From an uncultured Bacteroidota bacterium (GTDB taxonomy: Bacteria > Bacteroidota > Bacteroidia > Chitinophagales > Chitinophagaceae), in assembly GCA_903853805.1 (NCBI GenBank), contig CAINUN010000044.1, forward strand, positions 1 to 64,000: a DNA stretch of 64,000 bases, read 5' to 3'. This document shows positions 4,555-47,812 of the stretch, one piece after another (position 1 is the stretch's first letter; each line of letters starts with the position of its first letter). The position numbers and the translations under genes are program-made. The notes under the pieces were generated by a model. That model ran no database searches. It had not been told where the DNA came from and saw only the letters and a program-made list of their open reading frames with translations.

Positions 4555-6250
4555 ATTACTGTTGGGTTTCATCATGCTTTTTGCTTCATTGTGGAAATCA
4601 CTTGGAGCAGATATTGTTCAACTCAAAGCCATTCTACAAGCAAAGCTAAAAATGGATGATAGAACGCCATTACAAATGGGGCGTCCATCTACTAAAAAGA
4701 AAAAGATAAACTACTACTCTACTCTTTCTTTTTTCATTTATGCATTGTTTGGCTTGTTCTACGCATTCCCTTTGTTTATTGTAGACAATGATTTTCTGTT
4801 ATCACTCACAGAATACTATTCCATGCTACTGCTAATGTTGTGGTTCATGATGGTAGTAGGATTTTCAACTGTGTTGATTGACACACGAGATAACTTCATT
4901 CTCCTTCCACGACCTATCAACGACAAAACCTTACTCCTTGCAAGGCTATTGCACATTCTCATTTACTTGCTTCGCTTGGTGTTGCCATTGAGTATACCAG
5001 GAATGATTGTTTTAGGATTTATGAAAGGATGGACAACTGTACTATTTTTCTTTGTTCCCATTTTCTTATTATCGCTGTTGGTGTTGTTTTTGGTAAATGC
5101 GCTCTATCTCCTCATCATAAAACTGGCAGGTCCTAAGAAATTCAAAGACATCATTGGTAGTTTTCAAATTGCATTGTCGGTGCTCATGTTTGCGTCGAGC
5201 TATGTGATGCCTCGGATGTTTCAGTCTGAAAAAATCATGAGCATGACCATCTATGATTTACCTTGGATAAAATGGATTCCTACATATTGGTTGGCTGGTT
5301 TATGGACTTGGTTTTATAAAGTAAATGTTTTTTTTACTGGCACAAAATGGATGAGTTTACTGTCCGTCATTCTTCCATTTGCTGCGCTTTGGGCAACCGT
5401 GAAATGGCTAGCACCTAAATTTATTCAAGCCATTGCATTAGGCGAAGGACAAGAGGTTGTTCAACTCAACCCTTCAACAATCACTAACTTAAACAAGCAA
5501 AATAAGTACTACCAAATATTATCATCTTTACTCAACAAAAACCCTGAAGCAAAAGCGGGTTTTGAATTGACTTGGTTGCAAACAACACGCAACCGTGCCT
5601 TTAAAATGAAAGTATATCCATCGCTTGCCTACATTCCCATCTATTTCTTTTTCGTCGTATTGAGTCGTCCAGGTCAAAACCATGATGAATTGATTGCAAG
5701 AATGTCTTCGCCAAAAGCATTTCTAATATTGCTTTACATGTGTGCTTTTGCATTGCTCACTGCTGCAATGAACCTAATATATTCCGAGCAATACAAAGCC
5801 TCTTGGATCTATTTTACACCACCTGTTGAACGTCCAGGAAATATTATGAGTGGTGCTTTCAAAGCCTTATTTGTGAAATACTATTTGCCTTTTGCCACAA
5901 TCGTAGGCATTGTAGTCGTCTATTTTTCAGGATGGAAAACCTTACCTGATATCTTGATTGCTCAATTCAACATCATCAATTTTGTGCTCATTTCCTTAAG
6001 GGCAAGCATGGTGGCATTGCCATTTTCGGTGAAAGAACAAATGCGCGACCGCGGTGCTAAAAACATTATGCGGATGATTATGATTTTCTTGGTTATTCCT
6101 TGTCTTGGTTTGGCGCATTTCCTTACCATCAAATTTTGGATGTTGAAGTTTGTGGTTTATCCACTTATTCTCATCCTTTCTTGGATGCTTTGGGATAGTT
6201 ACAAAAAAACTTCTTGGCAAGCTATTACACAGATAAACTTGGATGAGTAA
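4544..6250 (+). CDS. ABC transporter permease, multi-spanning
   Basis: This 568-residue integral membrane protein has roughly a dozen hydrophobic segments spread over two halves and a central polar stretch around residues 300-345. It starts inside the 3' end of the ATPase gene and is preceded by a strong Shine-Dalgarno sequence, GAGGAGG at 4531-4537, six bases before the ATG; such a strong site is uncommon in this lineage and supports coupled translation. It is the likely membrane partner of the upstream ATPase. No enzyme motif is visible, and a specific substrate cannot be assigned. Confidence 0.85.
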   Translation: MINKLLLGFIMLFASLWKSLGADIVQLKAILQAKLKMDDRTPLQMGRPSTKKKKINYYSTLSFFIYALFGLFYAFPLFIVDNDFLLSLTEYYSMLLLMLWFMMVVGFSTVLIDTRDNFILLPRPINDKTLLLARLLHILIYLLRLVLPLSIPGMIVLGFMKGWTTVLFFFVPIFLLSLLVLFLVNALYLLIIKLAGPKKFKDIIGSFQIALSVLMFASSYVMPRMFQSEKIMSMTIYDLPWIKWIPTYWLAGLWTWFYKVNVFFTGTKWMSLLSVILPFAALWATVKWLAPKFIQAIALGEGQEVVQLNPSTITNLNKQNKYYQILSSLLNKNPEAKAGFELTWLQTTRNRAFKMKVYPSLAYIPIYFFFVVLSRPGQNHDELIARMSSPKAFLILLYMCAFALLTAAMNLIYSEQYKASWIYFTPPVERPGNIMSGAFKALFVKYYLPFATIVGIVVVYFSGWKTLPDILIAQFNIINFVLISLRASMVALPFSVKEQMRDRGAKNIMRMIMIFLVIPCLGLAHFLTIKFWMLKFVVYPLILILSWMLWDSYKKTSWQAITQINLDE

Positions 6251-6384
6251 CGATTTTATTTAGCATTTCATCTAAGCATAAGATAAAAGGTTGCTAGTTG
6301 TTCATTCATTATGCTTATGCTGACCAAAATCATGTATTTTCTCTAAAAAAGTAAATTACTTGCTGCATTCAATCTTCAGGAAAA

Positions 6385-9177
6385 ATGCGACAGGCAAGTT
6401 TTACGGTCAATGGTAAAAGACATGATGTAGTAGTGGGCGAGCACGAAATGCTTGCAGATGTCATCCGTAATAAGATAGGGCTAACAGGTACAAAGAAGGG
6501 TTGCTCGCAAGGTAGCTGTGGCACTTGCACCATCCTCGTTAATGGTGAAGCAGTATTGGGTTGCATTACGCCCGCCCTTCGATATGAAGGCGCTAATATC
6601 ACCACAATTGAAGGTGTTGCCACACAGGAAGGATTGCATTTGTTGCAAGAAAAGTTTGTTGAAAAAGGCGCCATTCAATGTGGGTTTTGTACACCGGGCA
6701 TGGTGATGACTGCCCTCGATTTTTTGCAGCACAATCCCAAACCTTCTACCGATGAAATCAAGTTGGCTTTGTCGGGCAATTTGTGTCGTTGCACAGGCTA
6801 TAAAAAAATAATAGATGCCGTAACGGAATTTGTAGAAGAAACCAATGGATTGAAACCCATAGTGCTTCCAAAGGATAATAAAAAACATACGGTAGGCGTT
6901 GGTCGCCCATATATAGAAGCAGGAAAGAAAGTGCAAGGCATTGCCGACTATGCCGACGATTACCAAATGAAAGATGTGTTGCACACTAAATTCCTGCGCA
7001 GTATTTTCCCTCATGCTAAGATTGAAGATATAGACATCAGCGAAGCCCAAAAACTAGATGGGGTTAGGTATGTAGCAATTGGCAGTGAATTGCCAGTTAC
7101 ATTTGGTGTCTTGCCTATTTCTCAAGATGAAACGGCAATGGCTATTGAAAAGTCACGTTTCATTGGAGAAATTGTAGCAGCTGTTGCAGCAGACACAGAA
7201 GAAATTGCAACTAAAGCTTGCAAGTTGATTAAGGTGAAGTATTCAAGAATCAAGGAGTTTTTAAGCATTGAAGATTCGTTGAATGATATTGGCGATAATG
7301 AAAAAATTCATAACTACGGCAAGTTCAACAACAATATTCACAAGAAAGCAGAACTGCGTTTTGGCAATCAAGAAGAAGGACTGAAAGAAGCCGATGTAGT
7401 GAGCGAAATGAGTTTTGAATTTGAAGGCATCAATCATGGTTTTACAGAACCTCATGCTGCCACTGCATATTGGGATGAAAACGGTTTAACCATGATAACC
7501 GCAACTCAAGTGACACATTATTTGCAACGAGCCTTAGCCAAAACCATGGAAGTGCCATTGAATAGAGTGCGTGTTATCAAGCCTTACATCGGAGGTGGTT
7601 TTGGTGGGAAAGGGGATCCATTTGCTCATGAAATCATTGTGGCGCACCTTGCTCGTAAAACTAGAAAACCGGTTAAGGTTTGTTTGACAAGAGAAGAAGT
7701 TTTTCTTACCAATCATGGTCGTCACCCGTCGAAGATGAACATAAAGTTGGGTGCAGATAATGATGGAACCCTAAAGGTGTTAGATGCGGACATCGCCATT
7801 GATGGGGGTGCTTATGGAAGCTTTGGGGTTGTCACTTCTTATTACAACGGTGTGTTGTTGCAAGCACCTTACAAACTCAATAATTTCGGTTTTAGAACCT
7901 ATCGTGTTTATACCAACAAACCTCAATGTGGTGCCATGCGCGGACATGGTGCTGTCAATTCTCGCTTTGCAGTTGAGTCAATGATTGACGACATCGCACA
8001 ACGTTTGCAGATGGACCCTATTGCCTTGAGGATGAAAAACTTTTTAGATTCCAATACGCTTACTGTTGGTCATTATCGCATTACATCCAACGGTAGCAGA
8101 GAAGCTATTCAGACTGTAGCGAATCAAGCCAATTGGAATGAAAAATATGGCAAGCTCGAATATGGTCATGGCATGGGAGTAGGTTGTGGTTTCTTTATTA
8201 GTGGTAGTGCCTTACCCATCATTTGGAATGAATTGCCACAATCAACGGTTCATCTAAAAGTTGATTTTGATGGTAGGGTTTTGATTACTTCGGGAGCCAA
8301 TGACATAGGGCAAGGAAGTGACACGATGCTTGCCATCATTGTTGCCGAAGTGTTGGGCATCAGCATGGACAAAATTTTTGTGATTGCTGCCGATACGCTG
8401 ATTACCCCAGTTGACTTGGGTAGTTATTCTAGTCGTGTGACTTTTATGGCGGGTAATGCTGCAAAAGATGCTGCCGAGAATTTGAAAAAAGAAATCGCTT
8501 TAGCCATTTCAAAAGCAAAAGAAATTGCTGAAGAAGAATTGAATTTTAGTGGTGATAGAATCACCGCTAATGATAAAAGTATTGACCTTGATTGGCTAGA
8601 AGCCATTGAAATCATGACAGCAAATAGAGGCGCTGTAAGCATCAGCGGAAAATACATTTCTCCTAAATTGGGTGGTGACTTTAAAGGTGCTGGAGCTGGC
8701 TTGAGTCCTTCTTATAGTTTTGGTGCATGTGTGGCTGAAGTGAAAGTGAATATCCAAACTGGTCATGTAAAAATCATCAACGTTTGGGGTGCACACGATT
8801 GTGGAAAGGCTTTGAATCCTTTAGCAGTTGAAGGGCAATTGGAAGGGTCTTGGCATATGGGCATTGGTCAAGCTATGAGCGAAGAAATGCGTTATTACAA
8901 TGGTTTGTTAGTGAACAATAATTTCCTTGATTACAAGATTCCAACAACCATGGACACACCTGATATTCATACCAACTTCGTAGAAACCAATGACCCCGAA
9001 GGACCTTTTGGGGCGAAGGAATGTGGTGAAGGTGCGATACATCCAGTCATTCCTGCAATTGCCAATGCAATTTTCGATGCATTAGGTATTCGCATTACCA
9101 AACTGCCCATCACTTCCGAAAATGTGTTGGCATTATTGAAACAAAAACAGCATTCACTCCTAGAAACTACAGCATAA
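6385..9177 (+). CDS. Molybdenum hydroxylase, fused 2Fe-2S and Mo-cofactor subunits (4-hydroxybenzoyl-CoA reductase-like)
   Basis: This 930-residue fusion combines what are usually two subunits of xanthine-oxidase-family enzymes. Residues 1-150 are the small 2Fe-2S subunit, with a plant-type cluster (C40, C45, C48, C60) and the second cluster (C99, C102, C134, C136) in canonical spacing. Residues about 168-920 are the Mo-molybdopterin cytosine dinucleotide subunit, with GGGFGGKG at 403-410, the AMRGHG loop near 517-522, and GPFGAKECGEG near 873-883, where E882 lies in the catalytic-glutamate position. The GPFGAKE form of this loop resembles HcrA of 4-hydroxybenzoyl-CoA reductase more than xanthine dehydrogenase. 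Three bases separate it from the FAD subunit gene, which carries the HcrB-specific cluster loop. The reaction is probably reductive dehydroxylation or hydroxylation of an aromatic substrate; the exact substrate is inferred. Confidence 0.87.
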   Translation: MRQASFTVNGKRHDVVVGEHEMLADVIRNKIGLTGTKKGCSQGSCGTCTILVNGEAVLGCITPALRYEGANITTIEGVATQEGLHLLQEKFVEKGAIQCGFCTPGMVMTALDFLQHNPKPSTDEIKLALSGNLCRCTGYKKIIDAVTEFVEETNGLKPIVLPKDNKKHTVGVGRPYIEAGKKVQGIADYADDYQMKDVLHTKFLRSIFPHAKIEDIDISEAQKLDGVRYVAIGSELPVTFGVLPISQDETAMAIEKSRFIGEIVAAVAADTEEIATKACKLIKVKYSRIKEFLSIEDSLNDIGDNEKIHNYGKFNNNIHKKAELRFGNQEEGLKEADVVSEMSFEFEGINHGFTEPHAATAYWDENGLTMITATQVTHYLQRALAKTMEVPLNRVRVIKPYIGGGFGGKGDPFAHEIIVAHLARKTRKPVKVCLTREEVFLTNHGRHPSKMNIKLGADNDGTLKVLDADIAIDGGAYGSFGVVTSYYNGVLLQAPYKLNNFGFRTYRVYTNKPQCGAMRGHGAVNSRFAVESMIDDIAQRLQMDPIALRMKNFLDSNTLTVGHYRITSNGSREAIQTVANQANWNEKYGKLEYGHGMGVGCGFFISGSALPIIWNELPQSTVHLKVDFDGRVLITSGANDIGQGSDTMLAIIVAEVLGISMDKIFVIAADTLITPVDLGSYSSRVTFMAGNAAKDAAENLKKEIALAISKAKEIAEEELNFSGDRITANDKSIDLDWLEAIEIMTANRGAVSISGKYISPKLGGDFKGAGAGLSPSYSFGACVAEVKVNIQTGHVKIINVWGAHDCGKALNPLAVEGQLEGSWHMGIGQAMSEEMRYYNGLLVNNNFLDYKIPTTMDTPDIHTNFVETNDPEGPFGAKECGEGAIHPVIPAIANAIFDALGIRITKLPITSENVLALLKQKQHSLLETTA

Positions 9178-9180
9178 ATC

Positions 9181-10113
9181 ATGGTAGCTGAAAAAAAATA
9201 CCTCCAACCTAAAACCATTGACGAAGCCATCAGCTTTGCAAAGGCACACGAAAACGATTTTTATTTTCTTGCCGGTGGTACTGATGCTTTGGTGAATAAA
9301 TATCAAGGAAATAAAGAAGCCTCCTGCATGATTGATATTTCCAGAATAAAAGAATTGAAATCTGTGGAAGTTTTTGAAAATGAAATTCATATTGGCGCAT
9401 TAATCACGCTCGATGGCTTGAAACAACACCAAGTGCTTCGTGAAAAATTTCCTGCATTATTGTTAGCTGCTCAAGAAGTAGCTTCACCCATACTTAGAAA
9501 ATCGGCAACTATTGGTGGCAATGTCTTGTGCGAAAACCGTTGTTCTTTTTACAATCAAAGCGAGTGGTGGCGCGAGGCTGTTGGCTATTGTCTTAAATGT
9601 GAAGGCGATGTTTGCATTGCTACAGGTGGCACAAAAGCTTGCTTTTCCAAGTTCGTTTCTGATACCGCACCAGTTATCATTAGCTTAAACGGAAGAATTG
9701 AATTGCATGATTTTGATGGCGTGAAAACTGTTCCGCTCGAAAGCATTTATACCGGCGATGGCATTCATCCTCGAAACATTGCATCTACTACATTACTCTC
9801 AAAAATAATCTTGCCGCTAGACAAGGAATACAAGGTTAAATTTAAAAAACTGCGCCCGCGCGAAGCGGTTGATTTCACATCATTAACCACAGCTGTTGCT
9901 CGCAGTAATGATGGAAATATTAGATTGGTGATTGGCGGTGTTGACCCAATGCCTGTTGTGATTGATGGCAATGCCGACAGCCTCAAAGAAGACTTAGTGA
10001 AAAAAGCACTTGCCAAATCTAGGGTGGTGGACAATGATATTTATAGCCGCAAATACCGCCGCGAAATGATGCGGTTGTTTTTAGAAGAAAGTTTAAATGC
10101 TTTGTTGGACTAA
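9181..10113 (+). CDS. FAD subunit of molybdenum hydroxylase with extra [4Fe-4S] loop (HcrB-like)
   Basis: This 310-residue flavin subunit of the CoxM/HcrB family has the FAD pyrophosphate motif AGGTDALV (31-38) and ATIGGN (109-114). Just after the latter is an insertion with cysteines C121, C137, C145 and C154, spaced C-x15-C-x7-C-x8-C. That is the spacing that binds the additional [4Fe-4S] cluster of 4-hydroxybenzoyl-CoA reductase, and the intervening FYNQSEWWR is also HcrB-like. The extra cluster lets the enzyme accept low-potential electrons and run reductively. The gene is transcribed with the fused Fe-S/Mo gene just upstream (3-bp gap) and ends at a bidirectional terminator. Confidence 0.92.
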   Translation: MVAEKKYLQPKTIDEAISFAKAHENDFYFLAGGTDALVNKYQGNKEASCMIDISRIKELKSVEVFENEIHIGALITLDGLKQHQVLREKFPALLLAAQEVASPILRKSATIGGNVLCENRCSFYNQSEWWREAVGYCLKCEGDVCIATGGTKACFSKFVSDTAPVIISLNGRIELHDFDGVKTVPLESIYTGDGIHPRNIASTTLLSKIILPLDKEYKVKFKKLRPREAVDFTSLTTAVARSNDGNIRLVIGGVDPMPVVIDGNADSLKEDLVKKALAKSRVVDNDIYSRKYRREMMRLFLEESLNALLD

Positions 10114-10144
10114 CAGTTATTTTCTTTCCTTTGAAATCAAAAAA

Positions 10145-10170
10145 AAAGGCTGCCGATATCGGCAGCCTTT
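10145..10170. terminator. Bidirectional rho-independent terminator
   Basis: A perfect 26-bp palindrome (AAAGGCTGCCGA and its complement, centred on the TATC of GATATC) with flanking A and T tracts lies between the convergent hydroxylase and isocitrate dehydrogenase genes, so it can end both transcripts. Confidence 0.9.
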
Positions 10171-10193
10171 CCCATTATTTATTTCTTCTAGTA

Positions 10194-11423
10194 TTATTTA
10201 GAAAGTTTAGCATTGAGGTTAGTATCCAATGCTTCCAAAAACTCTTCAGTGTAGAGGTAATGGTCGCCATGTTTTACCTTATTGCCATAAACCGAAACGG
10301 CTAAGTCTTTAGTCATTTTACCACTTTCAACTGTTTCAATACACACATCTTCTAGCGCTTGACAGAAATCAATCAATTCTTGATTACCATCTAGTTTTCC
10401 ACGGAAAGCAAGACCGCGTGTCCAAGCAAAAATAGAAGCAATTGGATTGGTAGAAGTAGGATTCCCTTTTTGATATTCGCGGTAGTGACGCGTAACAGTT
10501 CCGTGAGCTGCTTCCGCTTCCATAGTTTTGCCATCAGGCGTTACCAATACAGAAGTCATTAAGCCCAACGAACCAAAACCTTGTGCAACGGTATCGCTTT
10601 GCACATCGCCATCATAGTTTTTACAAGCCCAAACGAAATTGCCATTCCATTTCAATGCACTAGCCACCATATCGTCAATCAAACGATGTTCGTAAGTAAT
10701 GCCGGAAGCATCCATTTTGGATTTGAATTCGTTTTGATAAACCTCTTCAAAAATATCTTTGAAACGACCATCATATTTCTTCAAAATAGTGTTCTTAGTA
10801 GAAAGATATAATGGCCATTTTTTAGTCAAAGCCATATTGAAGCAAGCACGAGAAAAACCACGGATTGATTCATCGGTGTTGTACATAGCCATTGCCACAC
10901 CGTCTCCTTTAAAGTTATACACTTCATGCTCAATCACTTCACCGTTTTCGCCTTCAAACTTTATGGTGAGTTTTCCTTTTCCTTTAGTTACAAAATCGGT
11001 TGCGCGATATTGGTCTCCAAAAGCATGGCGGCCCACGATGATTGGCGCATCCCAATTAGTTACCAAACGAGGAACATTTTTAATAACAATTGGCTCGCGG
11101 AAAACAGTGCCGTCAAGGATGTTACGGATAGTGCCATTAGGGCTTTTCCACATTTGCTTCAACCTAAATTCTTCCACTCTTGCTTCATCCGGGGTAATAG
11201 TAGCACATTTAATGCCCACACCATACTGACGAATAGCATTAGCTGCATCAATAGTCACTTGGTCATTGGTTTCATCACGATACTCCACACCAAGATCGTA
11301 GTATTTAATATCAACATCAATGTAAGGAAGAATGAGTTTGTCTTTAATAAACTTCCAAATAATTCGCGTCATTTCATCACCGTCAAGTTCTACAACGGGA
11401 TTAGCTACTTTAATTTTTGCCAT
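10194..11423 (-). CDS. icd: Isocitrate dehydrogenase (NADP+), eukaryote-like type
   Basis: TCA-cycle enzyme converting isocitrate to 2-oxoglutarate and CO2 with NADPH production. The 409-residue protein from the ATG at 11423 closely follows the cytosolic/mitochondrial eukaryotic [19 protein letters not shown] at the N-terminus, [11 protein letters not shown], the catalytic-arginine segment [30 protein letters not shown], and [15 protein letters not shown] longer frame to 11483 exists, but its extra 20 residues precede the conserved start and overlap the predicted promoter (-7 at 11463-11470), so I reject it. The gene is monocistronic, with a terminator downstream and an inverted repeat upstream of the promoter. 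Confidence 0.97.
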
Positions 11424-20015: not shown

Positions 20016-22142
20016 CTATTTCTTCCCATATCCTAAGCCCATATTGAAGAGCATAAACGCCCATTTATCGGCTTGTTCTTGAATAATCATGTTGGTTGGT
20101 TTTCCTGCTCCATGACCAGCATTAGTTTCAATGCGAATCAATGTTGGGTTGTTGCAACTTTGCGCATCTTGTAAAGCTGCTGCAAACTTAAATGAGTGTG
20201 CAGGAACTACACGGTCATCATGGTCGCCGGTGAGCACCATGGTTGAAGGGTAACAAGTGCCTTTCTTCGTGTTGTGAACAGGAGAGTATTTGTAGAGATA
20301 ATCAAACATGGGTTTGTTATCATCGGCGGTACCATAATCATAAGCCCAACCTGCGCCAGCAGTGAATTTATGATAACGCAACATGTCTAACACGCCCACA
20401 GCAGGGAAAGCAACCCGAAATAGGTCCGGACGTTGCGTGAGACAAGCACCAACTAATAAGCCACCATTAGAGCCACCAGAAATTGCAAGGAATTCTTTGG
20501 TTGTATATTTTTCATTGATAAGGTATTCGGCAGCAGCAATGAAGTCGTTGAATACGTTTTGCTTTTGTTGCTTGGTACCTGCATCGTGCCATTTGTCGCC
20601 ATACTCGCCGCCCCCACGAATATTGGCTACAGCATAAATGCCACCGTTTTCCATAAACACCATATTGCTTACTGAAAACGAAGGGGTCATGCTAATACTA
20701 AACCCTCCATATCCATAAAGCATCACAGGGTTTTTGCCATTTTGTTTCATCCCTTTTTTGTAGGTGATTATCATTGGAATTGTTGTGCCATCTTCATTGC
20801 CGTAAAACACTTGTTTGCTTTCATAGTCGTCAGCATTGATTTTTAATGTTGGCTTTTTATAAACAGCAGTCAATCCACTAGTAATGTCGTACTTAAAAAT
20901 TGTAGAAGGATAGACATAAGAAGTGAAGGTATAATAGAGTTCATGCTCGGAGCTTTTACCACCAAAACCGCCCGCTGTTCCTAAGCCCGGGAGTGTTATT
21001 TCTTTTTCTTTCTTTCCATTTAAATTGTATTGAAACACTTGCGACACCGCATCTTTTATGTATTGTGCAAACAACTTATTACCGCAGGTCGAAACACTCA
21101 AAGGAAACTGTGTTTCGGGAATTAAATCTTTCCAATTGGCAGGAACAGGGTTGGCAGCATCTACTACCACCAATTTTTTGTTGGGTGCTTTTTGATTGGT
21201 AATGATGTACAACTTGCCATCTTGTGCAAAAACCACATCTTGTTCATAATCAAAACCTGTAACCACCGGAATAATAGGTGCACGGCTCATAGTTAGATTT
21301 TGAATGTAAAGCTCATTGCCATAAGTAGCATTGGCTGCTGAAATGATGAGGAAGTTTTGGTCTTCGGTAACCGTGCCACCAATGTAGCGGCGCGGGGTAG
21401 ATTCGCCACCAAAAATCAAGGCATCCTCTGCTTGTTTTGTGCCTAGTTTGTGGTAATACAATTTATGAATTTGTGTTTTACCCGAAAGCTGACTGCCTTC
21501 TTTGGGCTTGTCGTAGCTACTGTAATAAAAACCATCATTGCCTTTCCATGAAACACCGCTGAACTTCACATCAAAAAGAGTGTCGTCTATTTGTTTTTTA
21601 GTGTTGGTATTAAGGATAATGACTTTGCGCCAATCTGAACCGCCAATTGATATTTGATAAGCACACAATGAACCATCTTTTGTGAAATCGATGCCTGCTA
21701 ACGAGGTGGTGCCATCGGCTGAAAATTTATTGGGGTCGAGAAAAACTTCCGGCTTACTACCGCCTTTTTGACGATACAACACTGATTGATTTTGCAATCC
21801 ATTGTTTTTGTAGAAATAAGTGTAGCCACCTTCTTTAAAAGGCGCCGAATATTTTTCGAAGTTCCAGAGTTCTGAAATTCTTTTGGCAATGGCGCTGCGA
21901 AAAGGAATTTGATTGAGGTAAGCATTGGTCACTTCGTTTTGGCGTTTCACCCAATCTTTGGTGTCGGCAGCCATATCATCTTCGAGCCAACGATAAGGGT
22001 CGGCTACTTTGGTGCCAAAAAAGTCATCGATTTGTGTCCCTTTTTTAGTGTCGGGATATTTGCCTGAGAAGGCTGCGTTTTTTTGCGCAAATACTGTCAT
22101 GCTCATCAACAGAATGGTGGTGCAAATGGATATAAATTTCAT
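20016..22142 (-). CDS. Prolyl oligopeptidase (S9A), exported
   Basis: This 708-residue serine peptidase cleaves peptides after proline. From the ATG at 22142 there is a signal peptide (MKFISICTTILLMSMTVFAQ), then the N-terminal strand and seven-bladed propeller, then the alpha/beta-hydrolase domain. The catalytic triad is S558 (GGSNGG), D642 (GDHDDRVV) and H677 (AGHGAG), spaced as in family S9A. The frame extends to 22280, but the extra 46 residues precede the signal peptide and are encoded by repeat-like non-coding DNA, so I reject them. The gene is monocistronic and convergent with the glycosyltransferase. Confidence 0.95.
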   Translation of the reverse strand: MKFISICTTILLMSMTVFAQKNAAFSGKYPDTKKGTQIDDFFGTKVADPYRWLEDDMAADTKDWVKRQNEVTNAYLNQIPFRSAIAKRISELWNFEKYSAPFKEGGYTYFYKNNGLQNQSVLYRQKGGSKPEVFLDPNKFSADGTTSLAGIDFTKDGSLCAYQISIGGSDWRKVIILNTNTKKQIDDTLFDVKFSGVSWKGNDGFYYSSYDKPKEGSQLSGKTQIHKLYYHKLGTKQAEDALIFGGESTPRRYIGGTVTEDQNFLIISAANATYGNELYIQNLTMSRAPIIPVVTGFDYEQDVVFAQDGKLYIITNQKAPNKKLVVVDAANPVPANWKDLIPETQFPLSVSTCGNKLFAQYIKDAVSQVFQYNLNGKKEKEITLPGLGTAGGFGGKSSEHELYYTFTSYVYPSTIFKYDITSGLTAVYKKPTLKINADDYESKQVFYGNEDGTTIPMIITYKKGMKQNGKNPVMLYGYGGFSISMTPSFSVSNMVFMENGGIYAVANIRGGGEYGDKWHDAGTKQQKQNVFNDFIAAAEYLINEKYTTKEFLAISGGSNGGLLVGACLTQRPDLFRVAFPAVGVLDMLRYHKFTAGAGWAYDYGTADDNKPMFDYLYKYSPVHNTKKGTCYPSTMVLTGDHDDRVVPAHSFKFAAALQDAQSCNNPTLIRIETNAGHGAGKPTNMIIQEQADKWAFMLFNMGLGYGKK

Positions 22143-43241: not shown

Positions 43242-44234
43242 TTATTTTCCTAGCCAATTCAATGCATTGGTATAAAGCAGCTTTTCTTTCAAGTCTTTAG
43301 CCACAATTGTTTCTTCAATCAATTTTCCGGGATGATGTTCTCCAAGAGGAAAAGGATAATCGCTACCCATACAAATTTTGTCTTCGCCCAAGGCATCTAT
43401 CACAAAATGGAGTGCTTTAGGGTCATGCACCAAAGCATCTATCCAAAAACGCCCTAAATAATTCCGTGGATTTTCTTCGTTATCAATAGCGCACAAATCG
43501 GGGCGCACCATAAAACCATGTTCAATTCGCCCAATAGTGAAAGGGAAACTGCCACCGCCATGTGCAAACGCCACCCTCAATTTCGGAAACTGATGAAACA
43601 CTCCGCCAAAAATCATGGAGCTAATGGCTCTTGCTGTTTCGGCAGGCATACCCACCAACCATGGCAACCAATATTTCATCATTTTGTCTTCGCCCATCAT
43701 TTCCCAAGGATGCACAAACAAAGCGCAGCCCAACTCTTCGGCAGCTTTCCAAAAAGGAAAGAAATAAGGGTCGCTCAGGTTTTTGTTATTGATGTTGCTA
43801 CCAATTTCAAGACCGGGCATTTTCAACTCCTTTACACAACGCTCCATTTCATGAATGGCAAGGTCAATGTCTTGCAAAGGCACTGTGCCAATGCCTATAA
43901 ATCTATCGGGGTGTTGCGCTACACAACTTGCAATGTGGTCGTTGAAGAAACGAGAAGTTTCCAAACCATGTTGGGGCTTTGCCCAATAATTAAACAAAAC
44001 AGGAATTGTGGACAATACTTGTACCCCCACACTTGTCAAGTCCATTTCTTTTAAGCGAGTAGATGGGTCCCAGCAATTTTGTTCCACTTCTCTAAAAACC
44101 TTATCACCTTTTATCATTCGTGCACAACCGGGACAATGATGTTCTAAATGAATGAACTCGCCATACCCAAACTTTTGAAAATAGTTGGGGATATGTTCCG
44201 GCATGATATGGGTATGGATATCTATCTTTTTCAA
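43242..44234 (-). CDS. 2-amino-3-carboxymuconate-6-semialdehyde decarboxylase (ACMSD)
   Basis: This 330-residue metal-dependent amidohydrolase-fold decarboxylase acts in kynurenine/tryptophan and 2-nitrobenzoate breakdown, diverting the ring-cleavage product of 3-hydroxyanthranilate. Zinc ligands are H7 and H9 (DIHTHI), H175 (FVHPW), H225 (FAHGGG) and D292 (GSDYPFPLGE). Long stretches match animal and Pseudomonas ACMSD, such as KYWLPWLVGMPAET and ENCWDP-like QNCWDP. It is adjacent to a 3-oxoadipyl-CoA-type thiolase on the same strand (46-bp gap), consistent with an aromatic ring-catabolism unit. Other kynurenine genes are not in this window. Confidence 0.93.
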   Translation of the reverse strand: MKKIDIHTHIMPEHIPNYFQKFGYGEFIHLEHHCPGCARMIKGDKVFREVEQNCWDPSTRLKEMDLTSVGVQVLSTIPVLFNYWAKPQHGLETSRFFNDHIASCVAQHPDRFIGIGTVPLQDIDLAIHEMERCVKELKMPGLEIGSNINNKNLSDPYFFPFWKAAEELGCALFVHPWEMMGEDKMMKYWLPWLVGMPAETARAISSMIFGGVFHQFPKLRVAFAHGGGSFPFTIGRIEHGFMVRPDLCAIDNEENPRNYLGRFWIDALVHDPKALHFVIDALGEDKICMGSDYPFPLGEHHPGKLIEETIVAKDLKEKLLYTNALNWLGK

Positions 44235-44280: not shown

Positions 44281-45477
44281 CTAAACGCCTTCAAAAATAA
44301 TTGCTGCACCCTGCCCTACGCCAATGCACATAGAAGCCAAACCATATGACCCTCCACGACGTTTAAGTTCGTGTAATAAAGTGGTGGCAATGCGCACACC
44401 ACTACAGCCTAAAGGATGACCCAATGCAATGGCACCGCCATTTACATTTACTTTGGCAGCATCCAAATGGAGGTCGCGCATGCAGGCAATACTTTGAGAA
44501 GCAAAAGCTTCATTAAGTTCCACAAGGTCGAGGTCTTTGGCTTCAAGTCCTGCGCGTTTCATGGCTTTTTGCGAAGCTGGCACAGGTCCAATTCCCATAA
44601 TGGATGGGTCAACACCTGCAATGGCCATGGATTTAATTGTAGCAATAGGTTTTAAACCATATTTCTTTACGGCATCTTCAGAAGCGAGCAACATGGCAGC
44701 TGCACCATCATTCACGCCACTTGCATTGCCTGCGGTAACTGAACCTTCTTTTTTGAAAGCAGGTTTCAATGCTGTTAATTGTTCCAAAGTGGTTTGACGA
44801 GGATGTTCGTCAGTGTCGAACACTTTGGTTTTTCCTTTGCCCAAATCAATGGTCACCGGAATGATTTCATCTGCAAATTTTCCGGCAGCATGAGCAGCAA
44901 AATATTTTTCTTGACTATTGAAAGCAAATAGGTCTTGCTCTTCGCGGGAGATATTCCATTGACTAGCCACATTCTCTGCGGTTTCGCCCATAGAATAAGG
45001 GTGGTGCTTTTCGCTCAGCTTTGGATTGATGAAACGCCAACCGATGGTGGTGTCAAAAATTTCGGCTTTACGAGAAAAAGGACTGTCTGCTTTGGGCATT
45101 ACAAACGGTGCACGTGTCATAGATTCAACTCCACAAGCAATAAACAAATCGCCATCGCCACACATAATGGCACGCGATGCATCCATGATTGCTTGCAAAC
45201 CAGAAGCACACAAACGATTGACGGTGTTTCCACCAACCGTTGTTGGCAGACCTGCTAACAACGCCGCCATACGAGCCACATCTCGGTTGTCTTCTCCAGC
45301 TTGATTGGCAGCACCAGCTATCACATCTTCAATAGCGTTGACATCTATTTGAGGGTTTCTTTCTATCAATGCTTTGATGGCAAGAGCCAACAAATCGTCG
45401 GGACGAACAGAAGCCAAAGAGCCACCAAATTTTCCAATAGGAGTTCGTAATGTATCTATGATGTAAACGGTTTTCAT
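44281..45477 (-). CDS. Acyl-CoA thiolase, 3-oxoadipyl-CoA thiolase-like (PcaF/PaaJ)
   Basis: This 398-residue thiolase cleaves a 3-oxoacyl-CoA with CoA. The nucleophile is C90 (VNRLCASGLQA), then the ESMTRAPF loop, IALGHPLGCSG (active His) and the second Cys in MCIGVGQG. The segments ANQAGEDNRDVARMA and AEIFDTTIGWRF are typical of the 3-oxoadipyl-CoA thiolases of the beta-ketoadipate and phenylacetate routes, more than of fatty-acid FadA. A TACCTTCG -7-like box lies at 45513-45520. Confidence 0.9.
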   Translation of the reverse strand: MKTVYIIDTLRTPIGKFGGSLASVRPDDLLALAIKALIERNPQIDVNAIEDVIAGAANQAGEDNRDVARMAALLAGLPTTVGGNTVNRLCASGLQAIMDASRAIMCGDGDLFIACGVESMTRAPFVMPKADSPFSRKAEIFDTTIGWRFINPKLSEKHHPYSMGETAENVASQWNISREEQDLFAFNSQEKYFAAHAAGKFADEIIPVTIDLGKGKTKVFDTDEHPRQTTLEQLTALKPAFKKEGSVTAGNASGVNDGAAAMLLASEDAVKKYGLKPIATIKSMAIAGVDPSIMGIGPVPASQKAMKRAGLEAKDLDLVELNEAFASQSIACMRDLHLDAAKVNVNGGAIALGHPLGCSGVRIATTLLHELKRRGGSYGLASMCIGVGQGAAIIFEGV

Positions 45478-45642: not shown

Positions 45643-46527
45643 TTATTGATTTTCGAGTCCTGCTTTTTTAATTCTAATCATAATCACAATAAGATAAATG
45701 ACTGTTCCCCATACACCGCCTATGATGCTATAAGCCATCACTACCAACCAAATTGGTGAGTGAAAACGAGTAGCCCAAAGTGCGCGGTGAAAAAAGTTTC
45801 CTTCAACTTTAAATGGTTTTCCCCATCTAACAGTTGTTTCTACTCTAAGGTTTCCATAAGTGTCGTTGTCTTCCACTTTTGCAACTAAAACTATGGCTCC
45901 TAACTCATTTCCTGGAAGCCCTTCTTTTTTAAATTCGCCAGTAACTTTTCCTAAAGAATCCGTTGTGTAAGTTGCTTCGTCACCTATAGGCAAGTCAGAA
46001 CATTCTCTTTTAACGCCCAATTTCATTTCCACATCTTTCACCGGAACCCAAGCGCCATTTACAAACTCAGATACTGTTGCTACAACAGATTTATCTTCTG
46101 AAGTATCAATTGTAATCATGGCTTTATTAGCTGTGATTTCTGTATTTGATTCTTCATACTCATTGGTAGCATCAGAGATGGCAATAAAAGTATGATTAGG
46201 GTTTGCATTCCAAATCTGTTGAAGAGATGGTGGGATGGAAGCAGTTGTTTTGCCAATTTCATTGGTCTTAACTTTTCCTATTAACCCCAATCCGTTTCCA
46301 CTAGAGTCTTTATCAAGATATAGTTTAAAAGTAAGTCCTTCAACCGGTTGCAATTTCCCATCAACTTTTGTCTTTGCAGCCAAGGTTAAATAAGAGAAAT
46401 TATTATCCACTACATTGTAAGCAAGTTTCACATTGAGTGCGCTCTTTTCTTTAGCAAATGCAGTTGTTAGCGATAGCAATAAAATTGCCGCAGCAAATAA
46501 GCCGCTATTAATGATGTTCCTTTTCAT
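45643..46527 (-). CDS. Membrane-anchored periplasmic protein of the NrfD module
   Basis: This 294-residue protein has a signal peptide (ending AFAKEK), then about 225 residues of beta-rich periplasmic sequence with two similar halves (KLAYNVVDNNFSYLTLAAK / VDGKLQPVEGLTFKLYL and VVATVSEFVNGAWVPVKDVEMKLGV), like tandem Ig-type or carboxypeptidase-regulatory folds. A single transmembrane helix (about 258-282) ends in basic residues. No redox cofactor motif is visible. Its start overlaps the 3' end of the NrfD gene by 20 bp, so it is translationally coupled and probably a structural subunit of the complex. Confidence 0.75.
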   Translation of the reverse strand: MKRNIINSGLFAAAILLLSLTTAFAKEKSALNVKLAYNVVDNNFSYLTLAAKTKVDGKLQPVEGLTFKLYLDKDSSGNGLGLIGKVKTNEIGKTTASIPPSLQQIWNANPNHTFIAISDATNEYEESNTEITANKAMITIDTSEDKSVVATVSEFVNGAWVPVKDVEMKLGVKRECSDLPIGDEATYTTDSLGKVTGEFKKEGLPGNELGAIVLVAKVEDNDTYGNLRVETTVRWGKPFKVEGNFFHRALWATRFHSPIWLVVMAYSIIGGVWGTVIYLIVIMIRIKKAGLENQ

Positions 46528-47812
46528 GTTGTTCTTCTATTGTTTCCTGAATAGGAATGATTGGAAATATTCTTGCAAAAAATGTAATTACTAAGAGGGC
46601 TCCTGCTAATGACCCAAAGGCAATTGCCCACTCTTCCCAACTTGGAAAATAGTGTTTATAATTTTCAGGGACATTGTGCATTGGTAAGAAAGGATGTAAT
46701 AAAGTAGGTGTAACAATTAGGTATCTTTTCACCCAAGCACCAACTACTATCATGATTCCTGCAATAAACATTGGGAATGGTTTTCTACCTTTTTTAAAGA
46801 TGAGAATGAGCATAGGAATAATCATCCCACCAAAGATTGCTGACCAAAAAACAGGTGCAAAGTCACCGATTAATAAACCATTCAAAAATGCCTCTTCAGA
46901 TTTCTTCATTTTGAAAAGAGGAGTCAGAAATTCATTGATATTAAAGTAGAGATAGAGCATGCCTAGCATTACCACTATTCTACCCATTTTATCAAAATGT
47001 TCTTCTTTGATATATTCTTCAAGTTTATAGTATTTTCTAAAAACATACATGGCTACAACTACGCCACCACTACCCACTAAAAATGCACCTGAAATGAAGT
47101 AAGCGCCAAAGTTAGTGCTGTCCCATCCAGGACGATAAGTAGTTGCAAATAACCAAGAAGTAACTGTGTGAATACTAAATGCCACAGGTATGATGGCTAC
47201 GCAAAGAATATTGATTGCTTTTTTACTGAGTGTGCGTTGAAGTCTTGTGTTTTTCCAAAACGAACCCATAAAACGATACATCCACATCAATTTCTTGTCT
47301 TTGCTATGCGCAATAAGAAATTGCATATCGGGCATCAATGGGATATAAAGAAGCAGAAGGCTAATTACAAAGTAAGTAGAGATAACAACCACGTCCCAAA
47401 TAATAGGAGATTGTAGACGACCATATAGAAAAAGGTTGTAAAATCTTTCAGGACGTCCCATATCTACGATGATGATAAGAGATGCAAAAGTAATAGCAGA
47501 AACAGCTATTATTTCTGCAATCCGCGTAAGTGGCGTACTCCATTTTGTACCAGTAAGCCTTAATACGGCTGTAATTAAAGAACCTACAAGACTAATGGCA
47601 ACAAAGAAAACAAAGTTGGAGATGTAAATACCCCAAGAGGCATAATCTCGCATATTGGTTACAATAAGCCCTCTTTTGAGTTGTAGTACATAGGCATAAA
47701 ACCCTACGACACAAAACACTAAAAGGATACCAATCCAAACCATACTTCTTGTTCCAAATTTCTTTGGAAGCAAATCGGTGGCAATTTTTTGATCTATTAA
47801 TGACTGTTCCAC
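46508..47812 (-). CDS. NrfD/PsrC-type quinone-interacting membrane subunit
   Basis: This 434-residue integral membrane protein has about ten helices, in the NrfD/PsrC/ActC family that exchanges electrons between menaquinone and a periplasmic ferredoxin subunit. Family features include YASWGIYISNFVFFVAIS in the first helices and GAYFISGAFLVGSGGVVVAM. The start is GTG at 47812; the next in-frame ATG would remove 23 residues before the first helix. It lies 25 bp downstream of the ferredoxin gene, its expected partner. No heme-binding motif is seen. Confidence 0.9.
   Translation of the reverse strand: MEQSLIDQKIATDLLPKKFGTRSMVWIGILLVFCVVGFYAYVLQLKRGLIVTNMRDYASWGIYISNFVFFVAISLVGSLITAVLRLTGTKWSTPLTRIAEIIAVSAITFASLIIIVDMGRPERFYNLFLYGRLQSPIIWDVVVISTYFVISLLLLYIPLMPDMQFLIAHSKDKKLMWMYRFMGSFWKNTRLQRTLSKKAINILCVAIIPVAFSIHTVTSWLFATTYRPGWDSTNFGAYFISGAFLVGSGGVVVAMYVFRKYYKLEEYIKEEHFDKMGRIVVMLGMLYLYFNINEFLTPLFKMKKSEEAFLNGLLIGDFAPVFWSAIFGGMIIPMLILIFKKGRKPFPMFIAGIMIVVGAWVKRYLIVTPTLLHPFLPMHNVPENYKHYFPSWEEWAIAFGSLAGALLVITFFARIFPIIPIQETIEEQHEKEHH

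Follow-up and report, generated by a model that had tools for sequence, protein, structure and literature searches.

The organisms credited with anaerobic cleavage of aromatic rings by way of benzoyl-CoA are mostly Proteobacteria, Firmicutes and some archaea. 4-Hydroxybenzoyl-CoA reductase of Thauera aromatica, HcrABC (structure 1rm6), is built from three separate subunits and, going by how the 2004 paper on its structure is titled, reportedly contains an additional [4Fe-4S] cluster, which we take to be bound by four cysteines of HcrB. Another reductive dehydroxylase of the xanthine oxidase (XO) family, the urolithin C dehydroxylase Ucdh of Enterocloster bolteae, is described in the available portion of its report as a three-subunit enzyme acting on a free phenolic substrate, with 4-hydroxybenzoyl-CoA reductase (4-HBCR) as its closest characterised relative (PMC12771579). 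In Bacteroidota, the ability to dehydroxylate aromatics and open the ring anaerobically has rarely been noted: the available portion of one survey gives no bcr or bam genes for 37 representative genomes of the FCB superphylum and reports them from metagenome-assembled genomes (MAGs) of Krumholzibacteriota (PMC10936416), and a bioreactor study, also available in part, devotes a single sentence to a Bacteroidota MAG in which enzymes of anaerobic benzoyl-CoA degradation are expressed (PMC8099898). Here we describe a gene pair at positions 6385 to 10113 of a 64,000-nucleotide stretch (the window) of contig CAINUN010000044.1, from an uncultured member of the Chitinophagaceae (Bacteroidota). We read the pair, with a probability of roughly 80%, as an HcrABC-type hydroxyaroyl-CoA reductase, and most likely as a 4-hydroxybenzoyl-CoA reductase, in which HcrC and HcrA form one polypeptide. 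It shares the branch and presumably the working mode of HcrABC, yet it has a distinct gene architecture and scores below the family cut-offs, and no description of the fused enzyme was found in searches of the open-licence PMC literature, including the available portions of PMC10803450, PMC3958847 and PMC10116835. The features are the following.

6385 to 9177, forward strand: fused hcrCA-type gene (domain for two [2Fe-2S] clusters plus molybdenum (Mo) catalytic domain; 930 residues), from domains, profiles, PDB, tree and fold
6400 to 6822, forward strand: N-terminal domain for two [2Fe-2S] clusters, the HcrC equivalent (residues 6-146; Cys 40, 45, 48, 60, 99, 102, 134 and 136)
6937 to 9138, forward strand: Mo catalytic domain, the HcrA equivalent (residues 185-918), from the match to TIGR03194 and 1rm6_A
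9001 to 9033, forward strand: active-site loop GPFGAKECGEG (residues 873-883 of the fusion), from sequence alignment
9181 to 10113, forward strand: gene for an HcrB-type flavin adenine dinucleotide (FAD) subunit of 310 residues, from the match to TIGR03195 and to 1rm6_B by sequence and fold
9541 to 9642, forward strand: HcrB-type four-cysteine loop C121-x15-C137-x7-C145-x8-C154, the proposed [4Fe-4S] site, from alignment with 1rm6_B
10145 to 10170, no strand: inverted repeat between the convergent genes for the FAD subunit and isocitrate dehydrogenase, likely a bidirectional terminator (consensus match only)

Domain search places Fer2 (residues 6-57), Fer2_2 (74-146), Ald_Xan_dh_C, MoCoBD_1 and MoCoBD_2 on the one 930-residue chain and FAD_binding_5 on the 310-residue second protein, the two open reading frames (ORFs) being three bases apart. 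HcrABC has three separate subunits where the window has two genes, and the fusion of the 2Fe-2S and Mo subunits that had been proposed in an initial annotation of this DNA is borne out, the domains of both lying in a single ORF. The same annotation had called the loop GPFGAKE (residues 873-879) HcrA-like, and GAKE is indeed present in HcrA and the fused proteins and lacking in five other relatives, namely XdhA, PaoC, a PaoC-like protein, MOP (the Desulfovibrio aldehyde oxidoreductase) and a Sinorhizobium homologue (the XdhD sequence ended before the loop). Glu882 of the fused protein aligns in register with the glutamate of the GVGE motif of MOP and with E726 of HcrA, and presumably has a catalytic role. 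A scan for related loci covered 325 stretches in 280 relatives, from which the best 80 loci were kept: the fused gene is full-length in 70, cut by a contig end in nine and split into three frames in one (L025), and separate HcrC and HcrA genes were seen in none of the 80.

All three parts of the pair find their best NCBIfam models among the Hcr families. The Mo domain matches HcrA (TIGR03194) with 803.4 bits over residues 175-918, followed by XdhA with 560.4, and the FAD subunit matches HcrB (TIGR03195) with 215.8 bits, the next best model reaching 117.4; for the small Fe-S domain, HcrC (TIGR03193) leads with 170.9 bits, about 1 bit ahead of XdhC_XDHase (169.9). Among solved structures, chain A of 1rm6 leads with 578 vs 332 bits and chain B with 156 vs 67 bits, and for the small Fe-S domain quinoline 2-oxidoreductase (155.5 bits) stands above HcrC (146.8 bits). 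Predicted models of the two proteins have 1rm6_A and 1rm6_B as their first fold matches. The FAD model aligns with 1rm6_B at Z 30.4 and a root-mean-square deviation (rmsd) of 3.9 over 302 aligned residues, followed by CO dehydrogenase (Z 28.0, rmsd 2.8, 266 aligned); the Mo model is modest, with a mean predicted local distance difference test score (pLDDT) of 71.8 and low values in the active-site stretches. In a maximum-likelihood tree built from the window and 29 of the 70 full-length fused proteins, these 30 Mo domains group with HcrA (1rm6) and two more HcrA-like fusions at 100/97 support, and XdhA, XdhD, MOP, PaoC, the PaoC-like protein and the Sinorhizobium homologue fall outside; that HcrA is nearer to the two further fusions than to the 30 is weakly supported (93/64). 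HcrB joins 29 FAD subunits (91/82) in the corresponding tree, with PaoB elsewhere and a weak deepest fork (68/70). A phylogeny had been proposed as a check on the HcrABC assignment, and it places the subunits with HcrA and HcrB, apart from XdhA, among references that lacked HbaBCD, CoxLMS and nicotinate dehydrogenase. Across the 30 fused rows, 414 columns are conserved in at least 90%; HcrA alone shares 39 of them, and each of five other relatives compared shares 4-12 alone. Two sequence sets were defined, A2 with 49 of the 79 FAD ORFs plus the window and A3 with 32 of the 70 fused ORFs plus the window. Ordinary xanthine dehydrogenase was rejected as a candidate (XdhA 560 bits, cut-off 780, vs HcrA 803; separate in the tree), as were the nicotinate- and CO-dehydrogenase types, these on lower profile and PDB scores only, neither being in the tree. 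In a plasmid collection, matches to the FAD subunit are all below 30% identity (among the 40 matches listed) and those to the Mo protein at 36-39% (among the 60 matches listed).

The FAD subunit has cysteines at positions 49, 117 and 140 in addition to 121, 137, 145 and 154, and the latter four align with Cys122, Cys138, Cys146 and Cys155 of Thauera HcrB (1rm6_B), so that the loop and its HcrB spacing, as first annotated, hold to the exact position. By analogy with HcrB, the cluster at this loop would be of the [4Fe-4S] type. The four-cysteine loop is not a chance occurrence, because 78 of the 79 FAD ORFs from the 80 scanned loci keep the exact spacing and the remaining one keeps all four cysteines, although the scan relied on the motifs FYNQSEW or [YF]CLK[CY][EDK]GD and thereby partly selected for the loop, notably for its second cysteine. 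The deviating ORF (L055:10001-10954) has additional residues inserted between its second and third cysteine. The spacing is that of HcrB, but cysteine-rich loops at this place are not confined to HcrB: loops of other spacing occur in PaoB of Escherichia coli and in a PaoB-like protein of another Bacteroidota genome (G345). The initial annotation named neither the PaoB loop nor the recurrence of the fused form in other Bacteroidota.

The genome that holds the window (3.5 Mb, 106 contigs, 100% complete) also encodes putative machinery for ring reduction. On its contig C6, genes running in one direction encode a fusion of 3-hydroxyacyl-CoA dehydrogenase and enoyl hydratase, a Dch-like hydratase, Oah/BamA, Had and a thiolase, then, in that same direction, a fusion of ketopantoate reductase with an activator, a 160-residue protein, a third dehydratase-type protein with an HGD-D domain (HGD3), a CoA ligase of the ADP-forming type and BcrD, BcrA, BcrB and BcrC; a MocA-like transferase, an XdhC-like protein and an SDR are divergent from BcrC. 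BcrB (681.8 bits, NCBIfam cut-off 486.55), BcrC (443.4; 421.15), BcrD (315.2; 312.85), Had (445.7; 338.65) and Oah (585; 464.45) exceed their cut-offs. BcrA is the best match yet stays below its own (431.5 of 578), as does the Dch-like protein (226.1 of 292.5), and two further proteins are named by kind: the MocA-like one, far short of the MocA cut-off (75.7 of 186.45 bits), and the XdhC-like one, under both of its cut-offs (210.3 of 350 and 139.6 of 161.6). The CoA ligase is ADP-forming by its domains and below the NCBIfam cut-offs shown. A MoaA-type gene is present as well.

Two draws of genomes, both including the source genome, show how the pair and the pathway are distributed: 395 Bacteroidota genomes drawn evenly across the phylum and 59 relatives. 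Matches to the FAD subunit occur in three of the 395, the source genome, G059 (51% identity) and G345 (PaoB-like, 33%), and in three of the 59, the source genome, G404 and G433. BamA is over its cut-off in four genomes of the phylum draw (the source genome, G059, G160 and G294; 3/394 with the source left out) and, among the relatives, in exactly the three that have the FAD subunit. Random placement would give this concordance with a probability of 3e-5, or of about 6e-4 (1 in 1653) when the source genome is left out, kinship being ignored in both figures; without the source genome the concordance is 2/2 in 58 relatives, and the one clear FAD carrier among 394 phylum genomes is itself one of the three with BamA. 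BamA lies in the flank of 13 of the 80 loci. For 50 of the other 67, including L011 (G404) and L084 (G433) and leaving out 17, the genome was examined for BamA, which is over the cut-off in 46/50. A phylum draw made from G491 finds an HcrA-like protein at E 1e-190 in 4/395 genomes (G491, G059, G160 and G294, the second and third equated by sequence and the last by matching coordinates), with open frames of 936-961 residues, and all four BamA genomes of the phylum draw have a fused HcrA-like protein. The pair thus occurs with the benzoyl-CoA reductase pathway, as HcrABC does, and because of the decisive evidence from outside the window, the bcr operon in its own genome and the co-occurrence with BamA (46/50 vs 3/394), it is very probably a reductive dehydroxylase that feeds benzoyl-CoA into ring reduction. 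The expectation that such a form would be unusual in the phylum needs qualifying: it is rare, with the source genome and one clear relative in 395 genomes, but it forms a conserved clade in which 70 of the 80 loci have the fusion at full length.

The same linkage appears in the neighbourhoods of related loci, which were typed by BLAST (E 1e-15) against references from the source genome at 45% identity or more, with MocA-, XdhC- and SDR-like matches taken at any identity. At least one bcr, had, oah, dch or associated gene lies in the flank of 32 of the 80 loci and a Bcr subunit in 16, with MocA-like genes in 35, XdhC-like genes in 34 and SDR genes in 42. In G433 the order is BcrD-A-B-C, a divergent NTP transferase, an SDR, the fused gene and the FAD gene, and G059 is arranged alike (BcrD in L116, BcrA-B-C in L009); it also has an XdhC-like gene, which scores 148.4 of 161.6 bits, and, downstream, a 2-oxoacid:acceptor oxidoreductase pair whose alpha subunit scores 654.7 bits (cut-off 482.75). 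An oxidoreductase of this kind provides the reduced ferredoxin for benzoyl-CoA reduction in Thauera. For Geobacter metallireducens, the available portion of a published account lists a MobA-related gene among the possible Mo-cofactor genes for 4-hydroxybenzoyl-CoA reductase (PMC2700814).

Beyond the anatomy, the kinship and the presence and co-occurrence of pathway genes, which are observed directly, we infer the substrate, the direction of the reaction, the cluster type and the electron donor. By homology to HcrABC, a low-potential donor such as reduced ferredoxin would feed the [4Fe-4S] cluster of the FAD subunit, from which electrons would reach the Mo cofactor by way of FAD and the pair of [2Fe-2S] clusters, the reverse of the path in xanthine oxidase, and at Mo the phenolic hydroxyl para to the CoA thioester would leave as water. 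The product, benzoyl-CoA, would then lose its aromaticity through the action of the ATP-dependent class I benzoyl-CoA reductase, whose genes lie on another contig of the source genome, and Dch, Had and Oah/BamA would take it further. The MocA-like transferase and the XdhC-like protein beside the bcr genes may mature the Mo cofactor. Fusion would tie the Fe-S domain to the Mo domain and leave the electron path as it is.

Several observations weigh against this reading. All three NCBIfam equivalog cut-offs are missed (803.4/994.55, 215.8/404.55 and 170.9/257.8), and the identity of the Mo domain to Thauera HcrA is 39.8%, in a family whose members switch substrate easily. The trees contain a single characterised HcrA and a single HcrB, and long branches meet in them, as the program warns. 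In the AlphaFold model the pLDDT is below 50 over residues 119-144, 146-150 and 152-157, which cover stretches of the cysteine loop; the model is thus of low confidence where the distances between the four cysteines had been proposed as a check. Of what the initial annotation had proposed to look for elsewhere in the genome, class I benzoyl-CoA reductase-type genes were found, together with Had, Oah/BamA, Dch-like and maturation genes; benzoate-CoA ligase had no match at E 1e-60, but the bcr operon holds a CoA ligase of the ADP-forming type. The bcr cluster lies on another contig than the gene pair, so that the two are not neighbours in the source genome, and they are likewise apart in G404; 27 of the 80 loci have no reference pathway gene in the flank, many of them short-flanked and some with 10 kb on either side. 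BamA is partial in one of the 50 examined genomes with the fused enzyme and missing from three, possibly because these MAGs are incomplete, and in G160 and G294, which have BamA and an HcrA-like fusion, a search at E 1e-25 gave no loop-type FAD subunit.

An enzyme of the same kind might reductively dehydroxylate another aromatic, for example 3-hydroxybenzoyl-CoA, an aroyl-CoA that is dihydroxylated or methoxylated, or a free phenolic such as the urolithin C of Ucdh, and the sub-cut-off scores and the 40% identity to HcrA leave room for this, as does Ucdh itself, which according to the available portion of its report is an XO-family dehydroxylase that is 32.7% identical to 4-HBCR and acts on a substrate other than a CoA ester (PMC12771579). 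The second fused HcrA-like lineage, which lies within the bcr cluster in G294 and is also present in G160, a genome with BamA, could also mean that the dehydroxylases differ in specificity. The tie to benzoyl-CoA ring reduction, however, favours benzoyl-CoA as the product, and we consider a different substrate unlikely, if well worth keeping in mind. It is much less probable that the pair is a relic, acquired horizontally or in decay, with no functioning pathway behind it. The FAD subunit has no match in 6/6 genomes of the same genus (two of them 81-88% complete), and the separation of the pair from bcr in the source genome and G404 would suit such a history, but the ORFs are intact, the 30 fused rows are strongly conserved, the bcr cluster and Mo maturation genes are present, and the pattern of presence is the same as that of BamA.

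It would be equally surprising if the pair encoded an oxidative Mo hydroxylase for an aldehyde, a purine or an N-heteroaromatic, akin to PaoABC or xanthine dehydrogenase, whose likeness to HcrB lay in the loop only. PaoABC, the periplasmic aldehyde oxidoreductase of E. coli, belongs to the XO family, and PaoB has its cysteine-rich loop at the same place in the FAD subunit; MOP and E. coli XdhD have Fe-S and Mo domains in a single chain as the window does. Against this stand the different cysteine spacing of PaoABC, a PaoC profile score of 303 of 1180 bits vs 803 for HcrA and the separate branch of the Pao proteins in both trees, the three points on which the PaoABC type was rejected. PaoABC also has three subunits, and both MOP and XdhD lie outside the HcrA group. 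An oxidative hydroxylase would moreover have no need of the tight coupling to BamA. MOP is not known to have an FAD subunit. Of the systems compared, Thauera HcrABC remains the one that a hydroxyaroyl-CoA reductase in the window most resembles: it is the top profile, PDB and fold neighbour of the Mo and FAD parts and their neighbour in the trees, with the four cluster cysteines in register and the GAKE loop, and it differs by its unfused HcrC and HcrA.

The second fused lineage (L127:10191-13898; L126:10767-13571) comprises proteins of G294 (=G789) and G160 (=G655) that score nearer to HcrA (948-961 bits) and share 39.6-40.5% identity with that of the window, with Fe-S and Mo parts likewise on one chain. 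The G294 fusion lies inside a bcr cluster with an XdhB-type FAD subunit that lacks the cysteine loop, and no FAD-subunit gene adjoins the fused gene of G160, so that the loop is not universal among bcr-linked HcrA-like enzymes in Bacteroidota. The [4Fe-4S] cluster may even be dispensable for dehydroxylation, since Ucdh, which we liken to the window's enzyme by description and not by sequence, is described with FAD and 2Fe-2S subunits in the available portion of its report (PMC12771579). Such loop-less relatives weaken the loop as proof of reductive function and leave the evidence from context unaffected. One genome may carry two HcrA-like genes, as the locus L046 has the truncated end of another HcrA-like gene (20305-20922, reverse strand; 41% to that of the window) in addition to its fused gene.

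If the assignment as a hydroxyaroyl-CoA reductase is true, a recognisable clade of Bacteroidota breaks down lignin-type aromatics in the absence of oxygen, and the fusion offers a compact two-gene version in which a difficult Mo enzyme can be expressed and its structure studied. A bolder and tentative proposal, which we hold to be rather less likely than its contrary, is that this mostly uncultured clade owns a complete, little-described anaerobic aromatic pathway with enzyme designs of its own, namely a two-gene dehydroxylase with [4Fe-4S] entry and a substrate other than 4-hydroxybenzoyl-CoA, an aryl-CoA ligase of the ADP-forming and not the AMP-forming kind (in the lineage of the window), and HGD3 with the fusion of ketopantoate reductase and activator as a second bcr-like dehydratase/activator set. 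HGD3 (29% to BcrB) and the fusion of ketopantoate reductase with a BcrAD-type activator stand together in the bcr cluster of C6 (L111:9800-13389). Both are found again in G404, G433 and G059, and G294 has a pair of separate genes that match the fusion. They could possibly form a second ATP-dependent reductase or a dehydratase set. The CoA ligase of the bcr cluster (L111:13401-15524) is of the ADP-forming type in the source genome and G404 and of the AMP-forming type in G059 and G294, and the 160-residue protein (L111:11671-12153) aligns with residues 415-569, the C-terminal part, of the G059 ligase (30%, E 1e-21), like a leftover domain standing alone. A Sec-dependent nitrous-oxide reductase NosZ (L112:7370-9352; 919.9 bits, cut-off 625) adjoins the bcr cluster, with neighbours that resemble other nos genes by eye, which suggests respiration of N2O.

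Record names of clade members suggest lakes, groundwater and sediments. Two loci, L082 and L086, labelled Competibacteraceae and Thermoanaerobaculia, yield the phylum of the window in phylum draws, and their labels are probably wrong. In the window itself, the gene pair is flanked by an ABC transporter and an NADP-isocitrate dehydrogenase, with no aromatic genes adjoining; a shared operon with the upstream ABC transporter was considered and found no support, the ABC matches being weak (25-37%) and confined to 4/80 loci. The inverted repeat at 10145-10170 likely closes the two-gene unit as a bidirectional terminator, judging from a consensus match, by which terminator-like sites number 10 in positions 6200-10300 vs a shuffle mean of 4.0. 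Farther along, a thiolase at 44281-45477 (reverse strand) scores above the PcaF cut-off (604.1 of 597) and adjoins an ORF at 43242-44234 that by eye is amidohydrolase-like and for which NCBIfam gives nothing at 1e-20; this hints at additional aromatic metabolism. A DsrP-like membrane protein (139.7 of 350 bits) is encoded at 46508-47812 on the reverse strand, adjoined by ORFs that by eye are of the ferredoxin and cytochrome types.

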